From positions 1 to 64,000 of the forward strand of contig JASJCI010000016.1 in the NCBI GenBank assembly GCA_030066085.1: a DNA stretch of 64,000 nt. Reading direction: 5' to 3'. Positions 10,876-41,897 of this stretch are shown in pieces. A program made the position numbers and the translations under genes. Source of the stretch: Gammaproteobacteria bacterium (GTDB lineage: Bacteria > Pseudomonadota > Gammaproteobacteria > GCA-001735895). The first letter of the stretch is position 1, and every line of letters begins with the position of its first letter. Under the pieces are notes generated by a model. The model ran no database searches, was not told the DNA's origin, and was given only the letters and a program-made list of their open reading frames with translations.

Positions 10876-10990
<115 letters not shown>

Positions 10991-11020: not shown

Positions 11021-12745
11021 ATGAGTTACCAGGTATTAGCGCGCAAGTGGCGACCGGCCGACTTTTCGCAGATGGTAGGCCAGGAGCACGTCGTACAGGC
11101 ACTGGTCAACGCGCTGGATGCAAATCGCCTGCACCACGCATACCTGTTTTCCGGCACCCGGGGCGTGGGCAAGACCACGCTGGGCAGGATCTTCGCCAAG
11201 TCGCTCAACTGCGAAACCGGGATTACCTCGAGGCCGTGTGGCGAATGCGCCTCCTGCCGTGAAATCGACGAGGGACGCAGCGTCGACCTGCTCGAAATAG
11301 ACGCCGCATCCCGTACCGGCGTGGACGATATGCGCGAACTGCTCGAAAACGTGCAGTACGCGCCCACGCGTGGGCGCTTCAAGATCTACCTCATCGACGA
11401 GGTGCATATGCTGTCGCGCCATAGCTTCAACGCACTGCTGAAAACCCTGGAAGAACCGCCGCCGCATATCAAGTTCCTGCTGGCGACAACCGACCCGCAA
11501 AAAGTGCCGGTCACCGTTTTGTCGCGTTGCCTGCAGTTCAACCTGAAGCGGATGTCGCGCGCGCAGATCGAGGCCCAGCTCACCTACCTGACCGAGCAGG
11601 AGCAGATCGAGGCCGAAGGCGCGGCCCTGGCGAAACTGGCGAGTGCCGCTGATGGCAGCATGCGCGACGGGCTGAGCCTGCTCGACCAGGCCATTGCCTA
11701 CGGTGCCGGAGCGGTCACGTCGACGGCGGTCGAATCCATGCTCGGATCGATTTCACGCGATTACCTGCGGCACCTGTTCGATGCATTGCGCCAGCAGGAC
11801 GCGGCCGAACTGCTGCGCCAGGCACGAGCGGTGATCGAACTGAACCCTGATTTCCAGCGGGTCTGTGCCGAGATGATCAGCCTGCTGCATCAGGCAATGC
11901 TGTATCACGCGGATCCCGGGCTGACCGACCAGGGCGAATTCGACCAGGACCTGCTGGCCGCCTGTGCCTCGGCCTGGTCGCCCGAGGAACTGCAGCTTTA
12001 CTACCAGATCCTGCTGCAGGGACGGCAGGACCTGCTGCTCAGTCCGGACGAGGCCGCCGGCTTCGAAATGCTGATGTTGCGTCTGTTTGCCTTCACCCCG
12101 GAAACCGGCCTCGATCCCTCGCCAGCGCTAAAAAAAAAGCCTGAATCGACGGCCGCTGCCGCTGCTGGCCCTGCGACGGCTGCCGCAGCTGCGCATGTGT
12201 CGCCCGCCAAATCCCCGCCGGCAGCGCCTGTCGCCGATAACGATGCCCCGCTCGCGGCGCCGGCAACGGTTCGCGAGCAACCGCCAGGCGAGCCCGCTGG
12301 TGCCGCCAGCGGGTCGGCAACGAACGGCGATTCGCGGATACCGGAGTTCGACTGGACGAGACTCGCCTACGAACTGGAACTAGAGGGCCTGGGACGGGAA
12401 ATCCTGGCTAACAGCGAACTCGAATCGCGTGCCGACGGTCGCCTGCGCATCGCGCTGCGACCGGAGATATGCGACCTTGCGACCGCGCCGGTGATAGCCG
12501 AGATCGAGTCGGCACTGGCGCGCAAACTTGGGGTATCATTGGCGCTCGAGCTGGTTGCGCGCGAGGAGCTGACCGGCGAAACGCCGCTGCAGGCGAAACA
12601 GGCACGTGAAGAACGTGAACGGCTCGCGGCTATTGCGGCCATTCGCGGGGAAAGCGTGGTGCAAAAACTGCATCATGCGTTTGCCGCCGAGCTCGACGAA
12701 TCGAGCGTGGCGAAGATCGAAACACAAGGTCGAGGTGAGACATGA
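11021..12745 (+). CDS. dnaX: DNA polymerase III subunits tau (full length) and gamma (slippage product)
   Basis: A 574-residue AAA+ clamp-loader subunit. Walker [10 protein letters not shown] is near residue 45, zinc-binding cysteines lie in CGECASCRE, Walker B LIDEVHML is near 127, and a sensor region follows. Domains I-III end near residue 365. An Ala/Pro-rich linker (about 370-450) joins the tau-specific C-terminal part that in other bacteria binds DnaB and Pol III alpha. At codons 370-373 a run of nine A offers a -1 frame that stops after one more codon, giving a product of about 374 residues equivalent to gamma (separate entry). The gene overlaps ybaB by 4 nt. Confidence 0.96.
12130..12138 (+). 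other. dnaX nine-adenine slippage / frameshift site
   Basis: Nine consecutive A (zero frame CTA AAA AAA AAG CCT GAA). A -1 ribosomal shift, or transcripts with one extra A, gives AAA AAA GCC TGA, stopping at once. The position is just after domain III, where E. coli and Thermus make gamma. The run contains the A AAA AAG heptamer used in E. coli. Its length of nine A matches what is known for Thermus transcriptional slippage. I see no obvious upstream Shine-Dalgarno stimulator. Confidence 0.65.
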
Positions 12746-13065
12746 AAGGCGCTTTGGGCGACATGATGAAGAAGGCGCAGGAAATGCAGGAAAACCTGCA
12801 AAAAGCGCAACGCGAGCAGGCCAACAAGGAGGTTGCCGGTGAAGCCGGTGGCGGCATGGTTACGGTTGTCATGCGCGGCACCCACGAGGTCAACCGGGTT
12901 ACGATCGATCCGGCACTGGTGGGCGAGGACCTGGAGATGCTCGAAGACCTGATCGCCGCTGCAATCAACGATGCGGTGCACAAGGTCGAGAAATCCAACC
13001 AGGCCGCGATGCAGGAAATGACCGCCGGACTGAACCTGCCGCCGGGCTTCAAGCTGCCTTTCTGA
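12742..13065 (+). CDS. ybaB: YbaB/EbfC family nucleoid-associated protein
   Basis: A 107-residue DNA-binding protein of the YbaB/EbfC family, which forms dimers shaped like tweezers and coats DNA. The N-terminal helix ([22 protein letters not shown]), central beta hairpin ([16 protein letters not shown]) and the C-terminal tail ending [11 protein letters not shown] are typical, and the length is normal. It lies in the conserved dnaX-ybaB-recR operon, overlapping dnaX by 4 nt and ending 3 nt before recR. Confidence 0.95.
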
Positions 13066-13068
13066 TCC

Positions 13069-13662
13069 ATGTCCGCGGCTAGCCTGGACGCACTGATCGG
13101 TGCGTTGACCTGCCTGCCGGGAGTTGGCCGCAAATCAGCGCAGCGCCTGGCGCTGCACCTGTTGCAGCACGATCGTGACGGCGCCGAACGCATCGTCGAA
13201 AGCTTGCGTGAAGCGCTCCGGCGACTGCGGCACTGCCGGCAGTGCCGGAATTTCGCCGACGACGAGCTCTGCTCGATCTGTGCCGATCCGGCGCGCGACC
13301 AGGCCACGCTGTGCGTGGTCGAAACACCGGCCGACGTGCTCGCGGTAGAAGCCTCGGGCGCCTACCGCGGGCGCTACTTCGTCCTGCTCGGCAAGTTGTC
13401 GCCGCTCGACGGCATGGGGCCGGAGCAGATCGGGCTCGATTTGCTCGAGCAGCAGCTGGAGGAGGGCAGGATACGCGAGATCATTCTCGCCACCGGCGCC
13501 ACCGTCGAGGGTGACATAACCGCGCAATACATCGCCGATCTCGCCGCCGCGCGCGATATTACCGCGACCCGTCTTGCGCGCGGTATACCGCTCGGCGGTG
13601 AGCTGGAATTCGTGGACAGCGGTACGCTGTCGCGAGCGCTGGCGGCCCGCCGGCCCGACTGA
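13069..13662 (+). CDS. recR: Recombination protein RecR
   Basis: A 197-residue protein that works with RecO and RecF to load RecA at single-strand gaps. An N-terminal helix-hairpin-helix (LPGVGRKSAQRLALHLL) is followed by a C4 zinc finger (CRQCRNF and CSIC, about residues 57-72). A Toprim domain starts at VVETPADVLAVE, and the C-terminal part contains RLARGIPLGGELEFVD. Length is typical (about 198-200). It is third in the dnaX-ybaB-recR unit. Confidence 0.97.
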   Translation: MSAASLDALIGALTCLPGVGRKSAQRLALHLLQHDRDGAERIVESLREALRRLRHCRQCRNFADDELCSICADPARDQATLCVVETPADVLAVEASGAYRGRYFVLLGKLSPLDGMGPEQIGLDLLEQQLEEGRIREIILATGATVEGDITAQYIADLAAARDITATRLARGIPLGGELEFVDSGTLSRALAARRPD

Positions 13663-41803: not shown

Positions 41804-41871
41804 CGGAGAATGGCGCCAAAAAAAACGCACAAACATACAGTGATTTGTCGCGATTTCAAGTTTTTTGGCGC

Positions 41872-41897
41872 AAAAAAAAGCCCCGCCGTGGCGGGGC
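41872..41897 (-). terminator. Rho-independent terminator of the PuuD-like gene
   Basis: GCCCCGCC (41880-41887) and GGCGGGGC (41890-41897) with a 2-nt loop, followed on the minus strand by eight T. It lies 23 nt after the membrane-protein stop and upstream of argD. Confidence 0.85.

Follow-up and report, generated by a model that had tools for sequence, protein, structure and literature searches.

In an uncultured gammaproteobacterium, a run of nine A's very probably allows the single dnaX gene to yield two clamp-loader proteins, one long and one short. We analyzed this run within a 64,000-nucleotide stretch of DNA (here, the window) and across relatives of its genome, where half of the family carries the gene with its frames reversed; this reversal is the best evidence that slippage occurs. 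We regard a dual output of tau and gamma as highly probable, and we assign a probability of roughly 0.75 to the full reading, in which the two subunits are made from one dnaX by programmed slippage on nine A's, the run being ancestral and its roles having been reversed once.

The nine-A run and its reading frames

The dnaX open reading frame occupies positions 11021 to 12745 on the forward strand of the window, with matches to NCBIfam PRK07994 (718 bits) and dnaX_nterm (442 bits) and to Pfam domains, and its zero frame encodes tau (574 aa). A Pfam search places the end of domain III (PF12169) at residue 362. Farther on, the translation contains an Ala/Pro-rich tau linker (12140 to 12349), and the alpha-binding domain V (PF12170, residues 444 to 563; 12350 to 12709), absent from gamma, was found with Pfam. 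An SRP 4.5S RNA gene (10886 to 10981, forward strand; RF00169, 64.6 bits) lies directly 5′ of dnaX, whose start codon is 39 nt 3′ of it. The dnaX stop codon is overlapped by a ybaB/ebfC-like ORF (12742 to 13065), which precedes a recR-like ORF (13069 to 13662), both on the forward strand and named from gene order and translation.

Nine A's stand at positions 12130 to 12138, followed by G, just 3′ of the part encoding domain III and before the tau-specific part. In the frame of the ATG at 11021 they are read as CTA AAA AAA AAG CCT GAA, that is, codons 370 to 373 and then CCT, and an E. coli-type heptamer, A_AAA_AAG, lies in phase inside the run (12133 to 12139). After a −1 shift or with one extra A, the reading becomes ...AAA GCC TGA and ends at the TGA at 12142 to 12144, giving a predicted gamma of 374 residues. 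The other off-frame (one A fewer, or a +1 shift) is closed 81 codons past the run by a TAG at 12381 to 12383. Both the coordinates and the frame analysis of the original prediction, which had placed CTA AAA AAA AAG in the zero frame and a −1 TGA after domain III, were confirmed from the sequence.

No other A9 occurs in the 64-kb window, for which dinucleotide shuffles give an expectation of 0.09. Across the 4.39-Mb genome there are 17 runs of at least nine A's, mostly in intergenic or terminator-like contexts. Only two other A8 runs occur in the window, at 41818 to 41825 and 41872 to 41879, 46 nt apart.

Under the proposed mechanism, an unslipped message would yield tau (574 aa). If RNA polymerase added one A, or slipped by a number that is not a multiple of three, the tau frame would be lost and an early stop reached. 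The slipped product would be gamma-like (374 aa for one added A), with the ATPase domains I to III but without the helicase- and polymerase-binding part.

Conservation of the run in two phases

The window's genome belongs to an order that is represented in our collection by one family of 3 genera and 41 genomes, and 37 dnaX genes span the site. All 37 keep the run, as A9 in 36 and as A10 in one (L015), and an off-frame stop adjoins it throughout. Because the run is present in every site-spanning family member with a stop beside it, we conclude that it is not there by chance. The probability of the run, calculated from the encoded residues and the codon use of the individual gene, was 0.3 to 15% per genome (median, 3.6%).

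The run is read in two phases. In clade A (n = 19, window included), the codons are xTA AAA AAA AAG and the zero frame encodes tau; the A10 of L015 reads GAA AAA AAA AAG. In clade B (n = 18), the codons are GAA/CAA AAA AAA AGC/AGT (for example, GAA AAA AAA AGC CTG TAA), and the zero frame encodes gamma, 373 to 379 aa long in the genomes with the start covered. The encoded residues vary with phase (xKKK versus EKKS) while the nucleotides remain A9. The A's outside the minimal heptamer are fixed in each phase: in clade A, the third base of GTA/CTA/TTA/ATA, and in clade B, the second base of GAA/CAA and the first base of AGC/AGT.

The stops follow the phase. In clade A, the −1/+1A stop falls one codon past the run in 18 of 19 genes, compared to a control median of 15 codons; the remaining one, L013, has it at five codons, and L018 retains the stop with a different sequence, GAC TAA. 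The original prediction had called for an alignment of relatives and turned on whether the run and the adjacent −1 stop are both missing from them; with 37 of 37 genes carrying the run, that outcome does not occur. For 16 of the 17 clade B genes analyzed, the zero-frame stop lies two codons past the run (control median, 13); in L027 it lies six codons on. In the window, the −1A off-frame stays open for 81 codons, versus 3 to 29 in the other clade A members. The remaining off-frame of clade B was no shorter than the control, so nothing in that clade points to selection for slippage in both directions.

Domain V in the slipped frame of clade B

In the 18 clade B genomes, the linker and domain V lie after the run only in the −1/+1A frame (L027 is cut by its contig end), and the other frames of this region contain stops. 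Significant PF12170 matches of 59 to 72 bits were obtained in the −1/+1A frame of all four genes tested. The dN/dS of the region after the run in that frame was 0.09 to 0.18 in the three closest pairs, with a median of 0.27 over the usable pairs; domain V of clade B is intact and, to judge from its sequence, under purifying selection. A search of the family genomes for a second dnaX found none, each genome having one dnaX-level match. Given that domain V of clade B is encoded only off-frame and that dnaX is single, tau there must arise through a change of frame within the run. These data indicate that slippage at the A9 run is in use, at least in clade B species, in which we see no alternative route to tau.

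The clade B relatives therefore offer a natural demonstration of the slip, in that it is tau rather than gamma that requires it. In Thermus dnaX, where slipping yields the shorter of the two proteins, sequence can hardly prove that slippage is used (PMC1088944), a difficulty that the reversed relatives remove. The paired arrangements also provide a clean system for measuring slippage and for testing what constraint the tau:gamma ratio places on it, could separate polymerase from ribosome slippage, and bear on whether gamma matters beyond E. coli.

The slipping agent

Slippage of bacterial RNA polymerase on nine A's is established (PMC1088944, PMC5009743), and we consider it, in the form known from Thermus, a good deal likelier here than ribosomal frameshifting, because the site lacks both E. 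coli-type stimulators, Shine-Dalgarno and stem-loop, and because the A's that flank the heptamer do not vary. In the window's dnaX, the upstream pairing (up-24 window) was −1.7 kcal/mol, a strength reached by 86% of other dnaX windows, whereas in the E. coli positive control the same pipeline returned −6.9 kcal/mol at its Shine-Dalgarno site, the strongest window of that gene. The 40-nt downstream fold had a z score of 0.25 in the window, compared to −2.59 for the E. coli stem-loop; family means were −0.18 and −0.02, and 1 of 36 genes fell below −2. The view that the site lacks an upstream Shine-Dalgarno stimulator was thus upheld, and so was the proposal that transcriptional slippage is a real alternative, with neither stimulator found and a run that is unlikely under the gene's codon use.

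The strongest competitor is programmed −1 ribosomal frameshifting on A_AAA_AAG or A_AAA_AAA, which would produce clade A's gamma and clade B's tau, either without polymerase slippage or together with it. We consider it improbable. The same shift (−1/+1A) is required in both clades, so ribosomal −1 frameshifting predicts identical products, and a heptamer is in phase in each: A_AAA_AAG in clade A and A_AAA_AAA in clade B, where A_AAA_AAG is not in phase. However, clade B tau would then depend on A_AAA_AAA, which, according to a review, is much less shift-prone than A_AAA_AAG in E. coli (PMC5009743). Ribosomes are reported to slide on lysine-coding poly-A in E. coli (PMC4363877). The −1A off-frame of the window's species, open for 81 codons, would give no tight gamma, which counts against our main reading. 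Against the ribosome stand the missing stimulators, unlike in E. coli, and the length of the run, held at nine with its outside A's fixed although seven A's would suffice. Pattern searches of 41 genomes, which are not a full tRNA census, found tRNA-Lys(UUU) alone, and ARAGORN confirmed the ttt anticodon in the window's genome; this favors ribosomal frameshifting, as in E. coli. We had considered a tRNA-Lys(CUU) as an argument against ribosomal slippage, but CUU was not found in these searches and the argument fails. For RNA polymerase, rather than the ribosome, as the slipping agent, and likewise for the ratio of the products, our statements are what we infer.

History of the reversal

To place the two phases, we used trees of the domain I to III region, for both DNA and protein and with the run excluded. 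Clade A was monophyletic (100/98 and 100/99) and nested inside the family in the DNA and protein trees. Gamma-in-frame genes make up all of the two other genera (sister genera) and nine lineages of the window's genus. An identical 21-mer, GAAAAAAAAAGCCTGTAATTC, is common to gamma-in-frame members of two genera, which argues that the gamma-in-frame state was inherited. By phase alone, two independent gamma-in-frame origins would require an equal number of steps. Based on the phylogeny together with the shared 21-mer, the best reading is that the family started out with gamma in frame and that tau came into frame later, in a single reversal.

In the order's ancestor, accordingly to this reading, the run would have been present with gamma in the zero frame, and a slip would have been needed for tau. 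In the ancestor of clade A, one base would have been gained at or just before the run, reversing the roles with the length still at nine A's. The first branch of clade A unites the window's species and L015, whose A10 may be an intermediate of the reversal; a one-step insertion of T (GT-A9) is an equally possible route. It is highly probable that an invariant A9 is read in two phases within one genus, and that a single upstream base, with run length kept, changed gamma by default and tau by slip into tau by default and gamma by slip. If true, this would be a natural experiment indicating that slippage is near-symmetric and that selection acts on the run rather than on the frame.

Two further explanations concern the run itself. 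That homopolymer sequencing or assembly error, or DNA-level phase variation, produced the two phases is very unlikely. The named members are metagenome-assembled genomes and A9 tracts mutate via replication slippage, but phase tracks phylogeny with a single well-supported switch, the phase-matching stops are conserved, and the run is exactly A9 in 36 of 37 genes. In addition, tau is essential in E. coli, so that on/off phase variation would be lethal. The idea that the run is neutral or matters only for encoding KKK, with gamma not purposely made, is the least credible and already contradicted: Lys-rich linkers are common and an A9 by itself is no proof of use, but half of the family requires a frame change at the run for tau, off-frame stops adjoin it in both phases, and the amino acids change between phases while the nucleotides do not.

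Outside the family, dnaX mostly lacks the run. An A9 or A10 in the linker occurred in 5 of 96 other gammaproteobacterial dnaX genes (L049, from Oceanospirillum sanctuarii, L051, L053, L086, and L091); in each of them, both off-frames reach a stop within 7 codons. These five have the Thermus arrangement (PMC1088944), and their occurrence suggests repeated independent gain of Thermus-like A9/A10 dnaX sites. Among the matches listed from 370 gammaproteobacterial genomes, no other reversed dnaX was found, and the short open frames that we fetched were contig ends.

Comparison with known systems

The window's dnaX resembles that of Thermus thermophilus (PMC1088944) in having nine A's on the sense strand, a zero frame that encodes tau, and an early stop in the +1A frame, with no Shine-Dalgarno or stem-loop stimulator seen. 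It differs in belonging to another phylum, in the off-frame that stays open for 81 codons, and in having half of its relatives reversed. With E. coli dnaX it shares the in-phase A_AAA_AAG, a −1 stop that follows immediately, a tau-encoding zero frame, and tRNA-Lys(UUU) as the only one found; unlike E. coli, it has no upstream Shine-Dalgarno sequence and no downstream stem-loop, its run is A9 rather than A6, and the site is nearer domain III. Thermus, with A9 slippage, and E. coli, with ribosomal frameshifting, represent the classical dnaX systems, and in both tau is in frame.

Genes that need recoding for tau are also known. Antonov et al. 2013 (PMC3711429) described 17 of them, spread over 12 genera; nine carry A10, and others, in Chlorobi, have 7 to 9 A's. 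Clade B is like these two-ORF dnaX genes, with gamma in the zero frame and tau reached via a −1 frame transition at poly-A; unlike them, it has A9, belongs to one gammaproteobacterial order, and stands side by side with the other arrangement. The two-ORF arrangement is absent from the window's dnaX and is found here in the 18 clade B genomes only. In Blochmannia, homopolymer slippage has likewise been proposed to restore the tau frame of dnaX (PMC3017870); there, however, a frameshift in a reduced genome lies 3′ of the normal site, whereas here the site is conserved and has dedicated stops. A 2016 review notes that a single nucleotide can reverse the roles of the two arrangements. Both arrangements therefore have precedents (Thermus; Antonov 2013), while a natural series within one genus seems to be new: among openly licensed papers, we found no report of both with an invariant run in one genus.

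A second coding run

Further A9 runs within coding sequence of this genome served as controls for conservation, and one was conserved in only 1 of 5 cases. A second coding A9 (G000:C36:22038-22046, reverse strand; loci L171/L207, with relatives L208 to L224, L229, and L232) was tried as a negative control and rejected, since every one of the 20 clade A genomes with a homologue retains it, and so it provides no clean control. The gene encodes a protein of ∼480 aa with no significant match in Pfam or NCBIfam, and may possibly be a second slippage gene. The run, mostly CAG AAA AAA AAA CTG (Lys-Lys-Lys), is kept in 20 of 20 clade A-type homologues and is absent from 8 clade B homologues, which have A3 to A7 instead. 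In most homologues, that of the window's species not among them, the +1A off-frame reaches a stop within 9 codons.
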